From Owenia fusiformis (lineage: Eukaryota; Annelida; Polychaeta; Sabellida; Oweniidae), in assembly GCA_903813345.2 (NCBI GenBank), contig CAIIXF020000007.1, forward strand, positions 24,601,564 to 24,665,563: a stretch of DNA of 64,000 nucleotides. Reading direction: 5' to 3'. The notes under the pieces were generated by a model that was not told the DNA's origin, ran no database searches, and saw only the letters and a list, made by a program, of their open reading frames with translations. This document shows positions 4,735 through 53,100 of the stretch, piece by piece. Numbering within the stretch: position 1 is the first letter of the stretch; the number at the start of each line of letters is the position of its first letter. Made by a program: the position numbers and the translations under genes.

Positions 4735-5195
4735 ATAAATGCTGACATGAACAGTGCTGAAATTATCAATGCTGACATGAACAAACATGACGTGGGTAAT
4801 GATGACATGAACAGTGCTGAAATGATCTAGCTGACACAAACAAACATGACATTGGTAACAATGACATGAACAGTGCTGAAATGACCAATGCTGACATGAA
4901 CAAACATGACATTGGTAACGATGACATGAACAGTGCTGAAGTGATCCATGCTGACATGAACAAACATGACATGGGTAATGATGACATGGACAGTGCTGAA
5001 ATGATCCATGCTGACATGAACAAACATGACATGGGTAATGATGACATGAACAGTGCTGAAGTGATCCATGCTGACATGAACAAACATGACATTGGTAACA
5101 ATGACATGAACAGTGCTGAAATGACCAATGCTGACATGAACAAACATGACATGTGTAATGATGACATGAACACTGCTGACATACAAAATGCATAA
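4735..5195. repeat. 60-bp minisatellite, about 7.5 copies
   Basis: Consecutive 60-bp units run from about 4741 to 5190, each built on gctgacatgaacaaacatga followed by ggtaa and atgacatgaacagtgctgaa. Copies differ at a few positions; one near 4830 has lost a base, and degenerate copies trail to about 5300. Because 60 is divisible by three, all copies keep the same frame and produce long spurious open frames on both strands (20-residue repeats such as ADMNKHD or CSCQHWSFQHC). I see no start context, splice sites or non-repetitive coding flank, so I treat it as a non-coding tandem repeat. Confidence 0.9.
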
Positions 5196-28797: not shown

Positions 28798-29640
28798 CAT
28801 TGATAAAGTAGATCCCAGGTACATATGTGATAAACTAGATCCTAGTTAAAGCTAGGTTTATGCAAGTGATAAAATATGTATTATAATAAACTAATATAAT
28901 CAATAAACTAGATCCTTTAAGTGCATGTGATAAACTGTAATCCTTTGGATTTTCTTGTGATAAACTAAATTCTATGTTCGTCCATGCGATGAACTAGATT
29001 CTAGGTTTGTGTTTGTGATTTACTAAATTCCATGTAGATGTATCTAATAAAGTGGGTTCTTGATATGCATGTGATAAACTGGATTCAAGGTATGTGCATG
29101 TGATAAACTGGATACAAGGTATGTGCATGTGATAAACTGGATTCAAGGTATGTGCATGTGATAAACTGGATTCAAGGTATGTGCATGTGATAAACTGTAT
29201 TCAAGGTATTTGCATGTGATAAACTGGATTCTTGGTACATGCATGTGATAAACTGGATTCTTCGTATACGCATGTGATAAACTGGATTCAAGGTATGTGC
29301 ATGTGATAAACTGGATTCAAGGTATGTGCATGTGATAAACTGGATTCTTGGTATGTGCATGTGATAAACTGGATTCAAGGTATGTGCATGTGATAAACTG
29401 GATTCAAGGTATGTGCATGTGATAAACTGGATTCAAGGTATGTACATGTGATAAACTAGATTCAAGGTATGCACATGTGATAAACTGGATTCAAGGTATG
29501 TGCATGTGATAAACTGGATTCAAGGTATGTGCATGTGATAAACTGGATTCAAGGTATATGCATGTGATAAACTGGATTCAAGGTATGTGCATGTGATGAA
29601 CTGGATTCAAGGTATGAGCATGTGACATAGCAAATCTTCA
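28798..29640. repeat. 29-bp minisatellite, about 19 good copies plus degenerate leader
   Basis: From about 29068 to 29620 the unit atgtgataaactggattcaa plus ggtatgtgc is repeated head to tail about 19 times with few changes. From 28798 to 29067 increasingly degenerate copies (gataaactagatcc, gatgaactagattc) lead into it, a gradient from old to recently homogenised. The unit length is not a multiple of three and no spacers are present, so it is neither coding nor a CRISPR-like array. Confidence 0.92.
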
Positions 29641-44108: not shown

Positions 44109-47100
44109 ATGAAGGATAACGCACTTTTATTCACTGTGCTTTTTGGAGGTTTATTCAAAAGTGGAAACGCCGAACTAAATGGAACAAGGTAAGACAATAA
44201 GAAAAGTACATAGAGATTATCCTATATGAGGTTCAGGATATTGGGATTATCCAGAGGCCAATATAATATATTTGCCCGAGGGCCGCAGGTCCCGAGGGAA
44301 AATATATTATATTGGCCAAGGGATAATCCCAATATCCTGAAACGACTATAGGATAATATGTTTATCCCATACCAATCTTGGTCATTTGGTTAACATTGTT
44401 CAATCGTGGAAATATTCTGGAATATTCATGTCCAGTTTTGTTTTCTTGGCCGTGGACGGATTTTCCTGTTCTCTCAAATATTCCCGCATTTATTTTCTCA
44501 AATTTCTCATTGATTAAGTGGATGCTCCTTCTCTTTTTTAAACCATCAAACAGATCCCGATTGTCCGTGTATTCTCCATTGTCGTTTACAGTCATTACGC
44601 GAACGTTACAAATTATGAACAAATATGTGAGCGGCGATTATGACGTAGCGGGCAGATATACTATATCTGCCCGCTCGGAGCGGGACGTAAAGCTATATCT
44701 GCCCGCTGATGAAAATATAAGTTTTTACAAACCGGCTTTATGTACCTATAACACGTCCAAGTATGGGATAAAAGACTATATCCATCATATTCATTTGTCT
44801 CAACTCATTGTGGGAGCCATAGCCTGAAGAATTCCTTAGAGTACAAACTGTAGGATAAAGTCTGTATAGATATCTCTTCTAAGATTAAGATCCATAGGTA
44901 GACTTTCGTATAATAATGATTTCTAGGTATCTAAAATTAAAATGTGAAAACAATGAGAGAGTGACAATACAAAAAGGTAGCAAAAGGTGCCATATAAATA
45001 ACTGTTTTCTTTGGAATTCGAATGAATTTATCGAATAAAGTATTCAATGGGGAATAAAAATCCATTTTCTGAGGCAATAAATATTCGGACATAGATCAGG
45101 ATTCCTCTCAAGTGTTGGATGATGAGAGTCTGATAATCAGAATGATTTCAACGTGTTGCCGTGTCTGCAACAAGTATATATTTTCATGATTATATGTTTT
45201 CTCAATTTAAAACTTGACGTGTCTTTTTCTCCAATTTCGTATAATACGTGCAGAAAGCGCACGATCTCTGATTTCGCAGTGTTGTGTCATGATAATAGAC
45301 TAGATATGCGAGTAGATATAATCAAAAGTCATCAAAAATTCAATCAAACTGATGTCATATTTAGAATCTACATGTAGAATTGCATCTAGAAATGTGGTTT
45401 GGAAAAGAGTTTATCAACTTTGAAAATTTAATTTCCTTTGAAAATGTGACTTCTAGGTCGGGGAGATTCCCCATAGAGCCCATGTTGTAAAATCACAAAA
45501 AGTGAAATATCTTTTCTTGTGTAAGGCAGATAATATTTTCTTTTACTGGGCATATTTTAATTTGTATAACTATCAGATACAAAAGGGTAATATGAAAAGT
45601 GAACCACTAAAACTGATGAATATTCAAGTTTAAGGGAATTTTGTAATACCCTGCCATGTTATTTCCCCCGACTCAGCCACCCGGTTGCGAAACTGGTTAC
45701 TACCTACTCGCATCTGAGTAATTCGTATTCATAAGAGGAGAACCTATATATTTTAGTCTCCAAGCTGAATGAGAAAATAATATAAAAAGTAAAACATAAA
45801 TACAAATAACGATGTAAACAAATACAAAACGTCGACCTCACTTTTCAAGTTTTTTGTTTACGACGATGGATGTGCCTGGTGGATTCACAATAACCCCATC
45901 CCCCTTCAAGACGTTCAATAAGGGTTACGATAAACTTCCCGTATAAAAACAATATATCTGTATGGGTCGAGTCCATACGTTGTGCTAAATACGCAATTGG
46001 TACCGTAAATCTAGATATTTTTTCACACAAACATTTTTTAAACACAAATAGAAGATCCTGAAATTTCACCAATAAAATGTGAAATTGATTTGTCAATATA
46101 AAAATCTCCCTTTGATAAATCCGTGACGATCTATATTAAACATGTGGTCGGATAAACAGGCAGAGGTCATTACACAGTGACTTCCTGCCGGGATCGTGCC
46201 TTTTATACTAAACGGTGAGCATCACAATAAAGGAGCGTTCGATTTGCTAAACGATATGCATTACCCCTAATGACATGACATCTGCGCTCGCCTACAATTA
46301 TTGTTATTGCGGAATATGCCATATACCGCAGGTGAATATGACATATACCGCAGGTGAAAACGTGATACAGAAAGCCTTGATTTGATTGGTTGCGAGAATC
46401 GTCACTAAATGTAAAACTACGCTGGATTACCAATAAAGTTAGTGCGCCGAGTACTAATATATAAATCCTGGATTGATTGAGAAAGTTTATTACGCGAGAT
46501 TGGTGACTAATACTTCTGCTAAGTTAATATATTCGATACACAGTACTGTTGATTCAGTAATCATTATAATAATTTAAAACGTTTTACTTGTTCGTTCAAT
46601 CGATGCCATTGACAATTGCGTACTTCCGTATCGCGTTCTCATTGGTTAGTGTGTATGCCATATACCGCAGGTGAATCTGTCATACACCGCAAGTGAGTAT
46701 GCCATATTCGTAGCGGAATATGACATATTTTTGTATCGTATTTACCGCGTAACAATTATCGCTATTTCACTACTATATCTAACTCCTAGAAATGCATAAG
46801 ATACTGTTTGTCTAATTGTATTGTTTAGTATATTTTTGAAAGTACCTTATTAACATTTAACAGTCATCCGATAAACCATTGATAAGGAACAGACAAATAA
46901 AAACAAATAACACAATCACTACTAATTAATAAGCCAAATTGGTTGCCCATGAACACCAAATGAAGGTATAGTAGAGTGTATTTTTACAAGTCGTATGGGT
47001 CAATGCTGTAGTAGCACTTCAATGATCGACGTAGCAATTAGACAACCTGGCACACCGCAGTCATATCATGCCGCACCGTCAGACTGGCCACATGGTCCCC

Positions 47101-50100
47101 CTACGGCCTCCTTGTGTCTGGCTTGGGAGAGGGCTATCTGTCTCTACAAATTCAAAATACGCCGTGTGGCTTCAGTAGATGAGCGTAAGCTTACATATGT
47201 GCTGCGCCATTAATATTATATATTTTTTCTATTATTTTTCTCAAAATATCGGTTATTTTTTAGGGGTACAGGTGTGATTACTGGCGTAGAACCTACAATA
47301 GAATTACGAAATGCCATCCTACTTATTCTGGGCTTTGGACTATTCTCTGTACTCGTTGCAATCACGTTCCATCTGACCCGAAAGTACATCTTTCGAGATG
47401 CTTCGAACGTGGACACATCATTTGATGCAGGTGGAAAGGTTTCCGTTGGACTGACTGCGACTACTCTTGTGTCTCAGATGACATGGTCAGCTACTCTGCT
47501 CCAGTCTGTAACCGTTGCTGTAAAGGTATAGTAATTAACACACGAAATCTGTAAAAAAAACAAGTGGCTTGAAAAGAACACAGAACACGGGGGATAGATT
47601 TCACCCTTGGTATACGCAGCTAACGAAAATTGACCGGTACGGGTCAAAAGCTGGACCGGTACGGGTTAACGGTTTTATTTGAATTTAAAACAGCCATAAC
47701 TTGCTCAATATTGACTTCCTCGTGTCTAATTTGAAATATATGATGCCTCCCGATGCTTTTAAGTACCCCAATTTTTTACAGATTTTTAAACGGACCAAAA
47801 CTCTAAATGCGCATTTATGCTCTTTTCTCTCGAGAACGACTGTCTCATTTTCACGATAACTTTTATTTAGTACTTCTAACATATAAGATCTATTTTCCCC
47901 ATCAAGGTATGATGTAAATGCCATGCTATTTACATCTTGTGAGTTTCAATGACGCGCGTTTGATTTTATAAAAAATGCCAAACTTTGTGACAAAGAATTT
48001 CATCAGCTATTGCCCCGAACCGGTCCGTCTTCTCGCTGCAAGCAGATTGCCCCGAACCGGTCCGTCTTCTCGCTGCAAGCAGGATGAAATTCTTTGTTAC
48101 AAAGTTTGGCATTTTTTATAAAATCAAACGCGCGTCATTGAAACTCACAAGATGTAAATAGCATGTCATTTACATCATACCTTGATGGGGAAAAATAGAT
48201 CTTATATGTTAGAAGTACTAAATAAAAGTTATCGTGAAAATGAGACAGTCGTTCTCGAGAGAAAAGAGCATAAATGCGCATTTAGAGAGTTTTGGTCCGT
48301 TTAAAAATCTGTAAAAAATTGGGGTACTTAAAAGCATCGGGAGGCATCATATATATCAAATTAGACACGAGGAAGTCAATATTGAGCAAGTTATGGCTAT
48401 TTTAAATTCAAATAAAACCGTTAATCCGTACCGGTCCAGCTTTTGACCCGTACCGGTCAATTTTCGTTAGCTGCGTATACCAAGGGTGGATTTGTTGTAA
48501 AATGAAAAACAACTATAACTCTCTTTTTAAATTATTTTATCCACTGAACTTTAAAATAAGGCCAGATGCATACATTCATACCTTACACCCCAAGCTTTCC
48601 AGCCCCGGGTTTTCCAGCGGTATATATGGGAACTCGGGTAATTCGTGTTTATTACATCGTCGCATGAGAATAACTTTGTACTAACTGCCATTTTCAAAAA
48701 AATTGAGATAGACATGGAATTTTACTATTTGAAACACAGGCTTTCATCTCAGATACATGCCCCATCTCAATTCCCTCTCATTAAGCTAGAATTCAGTGTA
48801 AAATTGTACCATCTCCAGACAAACAGCTTATTTCTAATTTCAAATTGTCATATCTGATATCAACTGTTTTAACCAATCAATCTCTAAGAATTGGTCATGT
48901 GACTTGCAAAACTTGGAGTTATAACAATCTTATATTAAAACGAAGTATGCCAATATGCATGTTATTGTATCTAGAATGAAATAATGTTTTGTAACACAAT
49001 ACCATGCCAGTTTGCATGCCTGGCCTTTCATGTTTTAGTTTTAGAACTATTACAAGTAGATCAAAAAAATAAAATGATACAGTATGTGTAATCCCATGCA
49101 TATTCAAATTATATGCCCTCAATTACTCTTTGTATTATGGATGCTCATAGGATTATTCATGGCCACATGATATGAAATAGAATTACTAATTTCCTCGAAA
49201 ACCTAAGTCCTTGCTACCAGGGAAGATGAAAAGTACAAATGACCAGTTATCATGTGAGCAGTCAAAAGTACCCTTTATCTTCCCTGCTACCAGGTCTTAT
49301 GGGGGTTTGAATGGCCAAATGCAATAGAAATGCATATACGAAGCTGTCATCATTAAATGTTGAAAATGAAAGACTACTTATTTGTTTCTTCAAATAGAGT
49401 ACATAATAATAGGTTATATACTAGATAATAGTAATCAAAACAAATAGTAACTGTCATATTTTGCACTACATTGCTCAAAGGCAATCACTGTCTGTATACT
49501 ATTGAAATCTCTTTCAAAATGATGTTTTATAGTTTGTGGAAAAAAGCTAAATCTGTTTAAACTAGCTTTAACTTTTACTGACCATACACTATATCAATAA
49601 GGAGTTATCTTTATGTTAGTATAGTCCCTTAAAACACTTATTTTATTTTCTCTTCATCTATGATTTACTTTGCGCTTTCCACTGAACATCTGGGATCTTT
49701 TTAGTTATTTTATTACTAGTATGTTTTTCAGATTTGTCCTTTCTTTTGCATTTTTGGGAACATTGTTTTTAGATCATCTACATTTTATTTTGGAAAAGTA
49801 ACAAATTGGTTCAATTTCTTTACAAAGAGCCACTCTTAGTCTCCACTTCTACAATTGCTTCAATTCCCCATTGTACTCCACAGAGTAGCAAACAACAGAA
49901 AATGAATGGATAATGATAGCTGCATCCCAATGAACAAAATGTGATTACCTAAATCGAGGTTTCATCACTTTCATTAATCTAAAATGAATTAGAAATTATT
50001 TTTCTATTTTCAAATTTCTTCCATTTGCATGTAATAAAAATTGGTTATGTCTTAGGCCCTAAGGATCTGAAACCTGCTGGTCAAAATGGAATTACGGACC

Positions 50101-53100
50101 AGTTGCAATGTTATTCTCCTATACCCAGTGAAAAAATCAACTGGTCTGTATCAAAAATAACCTGATAATGACCAGCGGACCGGCCCTTAGGGGCTACATT
50201 GTAATGTGCTGGGAGGTGTAGGCTACAGGGTTTATACCGAGGGAAATATGTGGGGGACCGTATTGGCATCATTGGTTTCAATGCATTGTACTTCTGCCTT
50301 AGTTTCAAAGGCAATAAATTCTTTTTGAAGGGTGTCCTGAGATTCCAAAATTAAGAAATAATTGTACTTATTTGAGAAATTGATTTTAAAGTTTAATAAA
50401 TTGAATTTTCTTTATTTTATTAAATAATATTCTTTGGTTTTTGAAGATTTTTTTACAAAGCAAAACATTATTTTTCATTCTAGATACAATAACATGCATA
50501 TTGGCATACTTTGTTTTAATATAAGATTGTTATAACTCCAAGTTTTGCAAGTCACATGACCAATTCTTAGAGAGTTGATTGGTTGAAACAGTTGATATCA
50601 GATATGACAATTTGAAATTAGAAATAAGCTGTTATTCCGGTGGGAAATTGTATCAACTCCATTTCCATAGTTTTAAAAAAGGATCTTGTAAATTGTTTCA
50701 AGGTATGATATTTCATATAAGATATCTCTAGGGTGAGACCAGGTGACATACAAAAAATCAAGTTTCACATAGCAATACTAAGTAAGATACAGACCTCTAA
50801 ACGTTCAAACCTTGATTTCTCAGTTCCGTAAAAATGTGAGATAGTGTTATGCGGTAAACACGATACAAAAATATGTCATATTCCGCAACGAATATGGCAT
50901 ATTCACTTGCGGTGTATGACAGATTCACCTGCGGTATATGACATACACACTAACCAATGAGAACGCGATACGGAAGTACGCAATTGTTAATTGAACGAAT
51001 AAGTATACGTTATAAATTATTATAATGATTACTGAATCAATAGAACTGTGTACCGAATATATCAACTTAGCAGAAGTATCAGTCACCAATCTTGCGTAAT
51101 AAACTTTCTCAGTCAATCCAGGATTCATATATAAGTACTCGACGCACTAACTAGTCCAGCGTAGTTTTACATTTAGAGTCGATTCTCGCAACCAATCAAA
51201 TCAAGGCTTTCTGTATCACGTTTTCACCTGCGGTATATGTCATATTCACCTGCGGTATATGGCATATTCCGCAAGTGAGTATGACATATTCCGCAGGTGA
51301 GTATCGGGTATTCACTGAAATCAATGTATCGCATATTCACTGCGGAATATCGCATACTCACCTGCGGAATATGCCATATACCGCAGGTGAGTATGGCATA
51401 TTCACCCGTATCACAAATACCGCGCAACCATGAATGTATGCCATATACCGCGTAACAGATAGTACAAAGTTATTCTCATGCGACGACATGTTATATTTAT
51501 CAATGAGTTATTTTCTCAAGATATTTTTCAATGTTTAGTATGGTATAAGTGGACCACTTTGGTATGGAGCTGGAGCTACCGTACATCATTTCATCTTGGC
51601 TATCCTATCCATCCACCTAAAGACAAAGGCGCCAGGGGCGAAAACCTTCCTTCAGGTAACTCCATTTTATAGGGACACACGACCAATTGATTCTACCGCT
51701 GAAGTGGGGATAGATGACATTTTAAAATTAAAAACATAGTCCCGTTATTGTAATTACACCAGCATCACAAGTGGTTTGATTTTGGTAAGTCCATGAATGA
51801 AAAGGTGTATATTTGGATCAACTCTAACACATGATTTGATATGATATTTTCTCTGTAAAATTTTGACTTTTTTGACCTCCATCTGTCAAAATTCGAATGA
51901 ACATTTTTGACATTTTCTATATAGATGGCGTATTCAACAGGTGAGATATTTTGATTTTCATGGGGAGTTTTGATTCAAACTATTTTCACTGACAGAGGAC
52001 AAACTTGGGTATGATGACATGATAGCAAAACATGGCCACAAATCTTAATTTTCTCTCAAAGACAGATCATTTATATAGGGAAACCCATGTCATAGCATTT
52101 GGTTGTGTCATCCCATAGGGTGGAATAGTACCATCAGGGTTGATATTTGCAGAGGTAATTCAATAAATATCTGTAGATTCTTCTAATTTTATTAAAATCT
52201 TGATTTCTAAGGCAATAACGGTCATTTTATAAGTAAAATGGTTATTTCTACAGTTAGTTAGTCCACATCTTTTCTATTAGGTGATCCGTGCAAGGTTTGG
52301 AGCCCCATCACATATGATATTCTGTGTGTTCGCTGGCATAACCAATCTTATTACAACCATGAGTTTATTGCTGGCTGGCAGTGCTGTATTAACTAGTTTA
52401 ACATTGGATCTTTCCATTGAACTGACCTGTATGATACTTGCTGCTGTAATAGGTAGGTGTTCTATAATTCGATCCTCACCGTGTTGCTTTTAGAGAAAGA
52501 CTGACTTTGACGAATTATTACTCCCCAATATGATCTACAGACTTGCTTTTATAGGTTCCTATACTTTAATTGGTGGACTTGGTGCGACCTTCTACGTATC
52601 CTACTTCAACAGTACTCTCATCTTTTGTTTCCTCATTGTCATTGTAACCGAAATACTCTTAAAGCCTTCACTAGGAATAGACGGTTTGCCGTATGGGAGC
52701 TCAGACATTATGTATAGTTACATTCAGAATGCAACGGGACCAGATGGTAACCACAATGAAAGTTACTTGACGATTCTCTCATCCGGTGGTCTGATGTTTG
52801 GAGTTATCATCTTTGTAATGTCTTGCGCGTCACAGCTTGGGGATCAGTCATATTGGCAGAGTAGCATAGCAGCTAAACCTTTGCATGGCGTTTGGGGATT
52901 CATAGCCGGTGGCTTGACGTGGTTCGCCATACCTTTCACCTTTTCAACAACCATTGGATTGGTTTACATAGCCATGGAAAATTATCAAGGATCTTCTATT
53001 CTTTCTGAAACTGATATCCAAACAGGTATATTTTCGTGCAGGAAAAGTTCCTGATATGAATAGGAGATCTTACCCTTTGCATTCGTTTGACTTCACTTCT

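Follow-up and report, generated by a model that had tools for sequence, protein, structure and literature searches.

Which kind of mobile element left the two related repeats that lie in opposite orientation beside a putative urea symporter gene of the annelid Owenia fusiformis, and which kind of enzyme moved them? Both repeats, here called elements A and B, are located on contig CAIIXF020000007.1 within a window of 64,000 nucleotides (positions 24,601,564 to 24,665,563), which is the whole stretch of DNA that was analysed. An original prediction had described them as oppositely oriented relatives that inserted independently, and this description is borne out: both align to one 631-bp consensus, and each carries a target duplication of its own. 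We consider it fairly probable that A and B represent a non-coding, non-autonomous family of DNA transposons with a full length of 631 bp, similar to miniature inverted-repeat transposable elements (MITEs), which would be moved by an integrase-type enzyme acting in trans. The two elements and their duplications are the following:

46302 to 46754, plus strand: element A, 453 bp, TGTTATTGCGG...CCGCGTAACA
46297 to 46301: left target duplication of A, ATTAT
46755 to 46759: right target duplication of A, ATTAT
50845 to 51457, minus strand: element B, 613 bp, nearly full-length and in opposite orientation to A
50840 to 50844: target duplication of B on the low-coordinate side, GATAG
51458 to 51462: target duplication of B on the high-coordinate side, GATAG

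Element A is identical to the full-length consensus at 440 of 453 aligned bases and carries one 178-bp deletion after base 5; element B is identical at 598 of its 613 aligned bases and lacks 8, 1 and 9 bases at three places. The 5' junction of the deletion in A occurs at a single place in the 498-Mb genome (525 contigs), which is that of A itself. This search used an exact pattern in which G was also disallowed fifteen bases upstream; the remaining long matches to A start at its base 5 or later, so the junction is absent from those too. Element A is a private deletion copy of the family, and with its junction being unique, a division of A and B into two subtypes was ruled out.

The 13-base 3' end of the family has 480 exact occurrences genome-wide, compared with 14 for a reversed control, and many copies are bordered by their own duplication, in agreement with the earlier view of a transposon-like family. 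Similarity searches gave 1019 candidates for A and 1098 for B, and 40 from each set were scored; from the exact-end count and these candidate counts, the copy number is at least several hundred. The family is young and recently active, as base changes from the consensus amount to 1.0-3.0% in 26 of the 35 copies read and to 3.2-10.3% in the other nine. The sample is biased towards young copies, given that these were picked by an exact 3' end, by similarity to B, or from larger pieces. It derives from 36 copies read with both ends, of which one (L026) was dropped for having flanks identical to those of L025, and it counts L041 and L042 as two even though they share one insertion. Three 5' fragments (L081, C1:26245205-26245986; L070, C1:42680893-42681673; L074, C3:20306888-20307668) are 95-96% alike among themselves and about 80-91% like the standard family, and probably belong to an older subfamily. 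No frame of 100 codons or more exists in the consensus, judged by the longest stop-free stretch in six frames. Rfam gave seven matches on three loci, all to microRNA families and every one below the gathering score, and no tRNA was detected in the window.

The ends of the family read 5'-TGTTACGCGGTA...TACCGCGTAACA-3', with TGTTACGCGG and CCGCGTAACA as the end pair. The first base, which precedes GTTAC, is T in 34 of 35 copies, and the last base, which follows GTAAC, is A in all 35, whereas the base across the duplication coincides with the terminal A or T in no more than 15/35 and 9/35 copies. Since the outermost T and A are near-constant and the base across is free, the element ends in TG...CA (a TG start in 33 and a CA finish in 34 of the 35 copies). 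The places originally given for A and B were right, but their boundaries fell one base short on each side, as the terminal T and A are part of the element. A perfect terminal inverted repeat extends over 12 bp, beyond which the ends diverge and are mostly unmatched.

The duplication is exactly 5 bp long in 28 of the 35 copies, contains one mismatch in five and three mismatches in two, and is in no case longer; 33 of the copies are thus directly flanked by a 5-bp duplication with at most one mismatch. Among end pairs of less than 700 bp on C1-C3, a set that overlaps with these copies, 27 of 29 show 5 bp, one shows six and one none, and two of the 27 share flanks. Twenty further left ends had no listed right end: 13 do possess one, two have lost the 3' part and five keep the 5' part only. 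The duplication is exact in 11 of the 13 recovered pairs, with one mismatch in L080 and an offset of one base in L075. The 7-bp duplication that had been proposed is contradicted by these lengths. The 7-mer at B consists of GATAG plus the terminal base of the element on each side, matched by chance by the base across, and the seventh base of the 7-mer at A had already been marked as unequal. Copies lacking 7-bp duplications, which the original prediction had named as evidence against itself, were found, and speak against the 7-bp claim.

A site without the insertion leads to the same length. In L041 and L042 the family copy is nested in a host repeat with inverted repeats of about 506 bp, and the two host flanks around one TAAAT (with up to three mismatches) are present at 63 places, compared with none for the control. 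A single target is found at these uninserted sites, reading TAAAT in 62 and TAAGT in one. Uninserted host copies read GGGCTAAT or similar where inserted ones read GGGATAAT, which identifies them as close relatives and not as the very copies that took the insertion. The host repeat (C1:27914000-27922500 and C1:33159000-33167500) has the ends CACAGGCTGG...CCAGCCTGTG and has multiplied together with the nested copy.

The most distinctive feature of the family is the presence of palindromic arrays near its ends, which in A and B are represented by the following half-units:

46320 to 46356, minus strand: A, two half-units CACCTGCGGTATATG near the left end, 22 bp apart (46320-46334 and 46342-46356)
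46659 to 46673, minus strand: A, half-unit near the right end
50926 to 50940, plus strand: B, half-unit near the low-coordinate end
51225 to 51261, plus strand: B, two half-units 22 bp apart (51225-51239 and 51247-51261)
51359 to 51389: B, 31-bp dyad CACCTGCGGAATATG-C-CATATACCGCAGGTG, with half-units at 51359-51373 (plus) and 51375-51389 (minus)

The consensus contains eight half-units of CACCTGCGGTATATG (at most four mismatches), located only at 69-233 and 536-572; 1000 single-base shuffles of the consensus contained 0.11 on average and two at most. Neighbouring half-units of the same direction lie 22 bp apart, so that the predicted 22-bp spacing near both ends, around a unique centre, stands. 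Opposed neighbours form dyads, the longest of which spans 35 bp and matches in 16 of 17 arm pairs. As single-strand DNA, one copy folds at -118.1 kcal/mol, whereas 20 dinucleotide shuffles average -68.2 (z -11.1). The exact dyad had no match in either the viral or the prokaryote sequence collection; a literature search by sequence returned two unrelated bacterial papers, and a search by words gave nothing relevant. That the units occur close to the two ends but are absent from the centre is expected of binding sites for an end-pairing enzyme, and we regard them as candidate sites. The transposase acting in trans would be a DDE enzyme of the retroviral-integrase type. It would bind the GCGGTATATG-N-CATATACCGC dyads as well as the terminal repeats and pair the two ends, which would then be joined to the target with a 5-bp stagger. 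The 5-bp duplications of the family are seen at many independent sites.

The choice of target also shows a pattern. At 52 sites with exact duplications (seven with inexact ones were dropped), base frequencies are symmetric about the 5-bp centre, with G, T and A before and T, A and C after it, which approximates GTA-N5-TAC; this symmetry belongs to the pooled frequencies. Of 78 right flanks, 40 have C at the third position beyond the duplication (binomial p 2.5e-14), as do 39 of 94 left flanks at the mirror position (binomial p 2.1e-10), both relative to a background of 14.5% taken from outer positions of the left flanks. As the left position is also T in 41%, the preference is one for a pyrimidine. 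Three family copies lie inside other family copies (C2:14714584, C9:24446694 and C2:30829308), and two of these insertions hit one and the same position of a unit, GCGGAATATGN/CATA. It is conceivable, if rather improbable, that the enzyme forms an undescribed branch of integrase-type transposases that binds at the dyads and favours symmetric GTA-N5-TAC targets, which the family's own units resemble; such a preference would fit the three self-insertions.

The main rival explanation holds that the copies are solo long terminal repeats (LTRs), inserted by reverse transcription and integrase as part of an LTR retrotransposon whose two repeats later recombined to one. TG...CA ends and a 5-bp duplication are equally displayed by solo LTRs, integrase-bearing elements are common in the genome (150 of 782 candidates were scored, many with frames of more than 1300 codons), and a search for an excision footprint with an exact pattern at one nested site returned no match. 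The direct flanking of 33 of the 35 copies by their own duplication nevertheless weakens this explanation, as does the lack of a repeat-interior-repeat arrangement in any of the 35 pairs of exact ends that share a strand and lie within 20 kb of each other on C1-C3. Twenty-nine of these pairs are the single copies below 700 bp, and the six longer ones turned out to be separate insertions or standard copies that are nested or split. On C1 and C2, none of the 33 scored integrase matches comes closer than 14.9 kb to a listed exact end. These comparisons concern exact ends in that part of the genome. Furthermore, LTRs do not usually carry the same units near their two ends or a perfect inverted repeat of 12 bp, and neither AATAAA nor TATAAA is present in the consensus.

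Recurring flanks might likewise have pointed to retrotransposon interiors. Among 100 listed right-end rows, AAATAGGG follows the element in 11, ATATGTCC in 8, CGTTGATG in 4, and AACCTTT and GTATTAC in 2 each, and ACAGTAAG precedes it in 6 of 100 listed left-end rows. A read copy has the duplication on both sides for AAATAGGG (L041), CGTTGATG (L017), GTATTAC (L004) and ACAGTAAG (L045), and for AACCTTT the lists of left and right ends agree; these flanks therefore reflect nested or duplicated insertions and not retrotransposon interiors. The flank ATATGTCC is that of a composite in a larger repeat, in which two shortened copies stand head to head and the outer flanks are unmatched. Overall, we regard a solo-LTR origin as unlikely. 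In the composite, which was seen at L043 (C1:32718500-32727000), L001, L002 and L005, the two shortened copies are 7 bp (TCGTATG) apart; the larger repeat has inverted arms about 7 kb apart and contains a reverse-transcriptase fragment.

The same flanks bear on the idea of a decayed repeat that has no transposition of its own and is carried only inside other repeats. The five recurring right flanks account for 27 of the 100 rows, including 11 in the host with the inverted repeats of about 506 bp and 8 in the larger repeat, as such passive carriage would predict. The 100 rows nevertheless contain 78 distinct flanks, and most copies that were paired or read come with individual 5-bp duplications; these duplications, together with the 63 uninserted host sites, contradict this idea, which we consider very improbable.

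A non-autonomous family would depend on a coding partner, and several candidates were examined for this role. Copies of 6306, 2311 and 1060 bp with matching duplications, as well as L050, proved to be standard sequence split by inserts; the longest frames were 124 codons in the 6306-bp and 143 codons in the 2311-bp copy. A Pfam scan at E 0.1 of eight frames (six from these two copies and two from L053) gave no match for seven, and the eighth had a sub-threshold match to CAF20. The region C1:32289200-32294800 contains two standard copies, one with a nested insert, and L051 comprises a split, standard-looking copy, whose flanks show no matching duplication, plus a decayed relative. For the five pieces with a 5' part only (L069, L070, L074, L081 and L084), whose frames were listed by eye, no duplication-matched right end was found within 8-10 kb around each. 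The 12-base end in other contexts had three matches, all one variant of the standard end, compared with eight in the control, and the exact unit in other contexts had two compared with none, one of them plainly standard; neither was encountered in surroundings clearly unlike those of the standard family.

An element with PF24764 (rva_4) was also rejected as partner, as its one visible end, the left one, starts TACGAAGC and only 13-base chance matches connect it to the family. Fifteen of the rva_4 matches have one common score and a 309-codon frame, and the sixteenth is close. This element, of at least 11.7 kb (L064-L068; C1:25250766 onward, C10 and C12), has recently multiplied, the copies read being 99.6-99.9% identical, and farther along, on the other strand, it has a frame with a HECT match (E 1.9e-10). 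That a recently active integrase-type element of this genome has a different end could be taken to favour another reading, in which a transposase lineage that belongs to none of the described groups moves a DNA transposon family with TG...CA ends and a 5-bp stagger. The combination of a 5-bp duplication, a 12-bp inverted repeat and dyads, which matches none of the published group definitions compared, in the available portions of those sources, would agree with such a lineage. It requires a new enzyme, however, which is unnecessary because these ends and this target symmetry are general for integrase-type enzymes, and we find it doubtful.

The reading that we prefer remains a MITE-like family served by an integrase-type enzyme of a known kind. 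Several observations weigh against it: among the genome matches examined, none of the approaches revealed an autonomous partner, the footprint search mentioned above was empty, single target sites are rarely palindromic (mirrored positions agree in 19-44% of the 52 sites), and the 12-bp inverted repeat is shorter than those of the Ginger transposons compared below. As no partner was found, the type of enzyme is something that we infer. If a partner enzyme with the same ends exists, it would represent one more cut-and-paste element using a retroviral-type integrase. The analysis provides corrected boundaries and a corrected duplication length for a young repeat family and defines its ends, candidate binding sites and uninserted site.

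With respect to the gene context, the original placement of A and B on either side of a symporter exon holds insofar as they flank one open frame with a matching translation:

47214 to 47531, plus strand: open frame with a DUR3-like urea symporter match (phmmer, best E 3.9e-7), between A and B and outside both elements

A second frame downstream of B (52494-53054) also matches the DUR3 urea symporter (E 1.6e-21). DUR3-matching frames thus occur both between A and B and downstream of B, which would place B in an intron of a DUR3-like gene, with A either in another intron or shortly upstream of the gene; Pfam at 0.001 gave no match for four frames taken as parts of this gene. Inverted CACCTG (E-box) cores are part of the array palindrome and lie close to the DUR3-like frame, and such putative sites near an exon could matter for regulation. 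Between the symporter frame and B there is a perfect two-copy tandem repeat of 37 bp (48009-48082). Elsewhere in the window we noted a 29-bp tandem repeat of about 23 copies with a higher period of 87 bp (28954-29625), a 60-bp tandem repeat within overlapping open frames of 181-218 codons (4738-5179), and a run of N, read as X, that ends an otherwise open frame (about 36.1-36.6 kb) and may be a gap.

How does the family compare with known systems? It is short and non-coding, with terminal inverted repeats, a duplication of fixed length and many similar copies, as is the case for MITEs. Elements moved by enzymes of the retroviral-integrase type typically have TG...CA ends, a 5-bp stagger and a symmetric target, and the joint occurrence of these features here suggests an enzyme of that type, such as those of Ginger transposons or LTR elements. 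Among retrotransposons, solo LTRs of Gypsy, BEL or Copia elements have TG...CA ends and duplications of 4-6 bp (5 bp for these groups), and the family agrees in both; it differs in the dyad units at both ends, in the 12-bp perfect inverted repeat, and in that neither paired copies nor an internal region were found among the ends examined. CACTA/En-Spm elements contain subterminal enzyme-binding repeats, CACTA ends and 3-bp duplications; the arrays of short motifs near both ends are alike, whereas the ends and the duplication length are not.

Ginger2 elements, in the available text of their description, have TGTNR termini, inverted repeats of 50-180 bp, RTATAY targets and duplications of 4 bp in animals and 5 bp in TDD-4/5 (PMC2836005). 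The consensus TGTTA...TAACA agrees with these termini and the 5-bp duplication with TDD, but not with metazoan Ginger2; the inverted repeat of 12 bp and the GTA-N5-TAC-like target differ. This group is defined by an H2C2 zinc finger and a DDE transposase, and the family element itself is non-coding. Ginger1, according to the same text, combines TGTNR termini with 4-bp CCGG or CCGT duplications and inverted repeats of 40-270 bp (PMC2836005), and the family shares the termini but has varied 5-bp duplications and the shorter repeat. IS3EU and GingerRoot, as far as the available text defines them, have 6-bp duplications and as a rule TA...TA termini, with occasional TG...CA termini in GingerRoot (PMC10045372). 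The likeness lies in the integrase-related DDE group, to which the family's enzyme would belong, and in these occasional ends; the 5-bp duplication sets the family apart, and the near-constant TG and CA exclude IS3EU but not every GingerRoot. Altogether, the family matches in full the published definition of none of the groups compared, and we do not file it in any. The earlier statement that the elements fit no nameable superfamily is accurate to that extent, but their TG...CA ends and 5-bp duplication resemble those of elements moved by integrase-type enzymes, so that the family is ordinary in kind and unusual in its mix of features.

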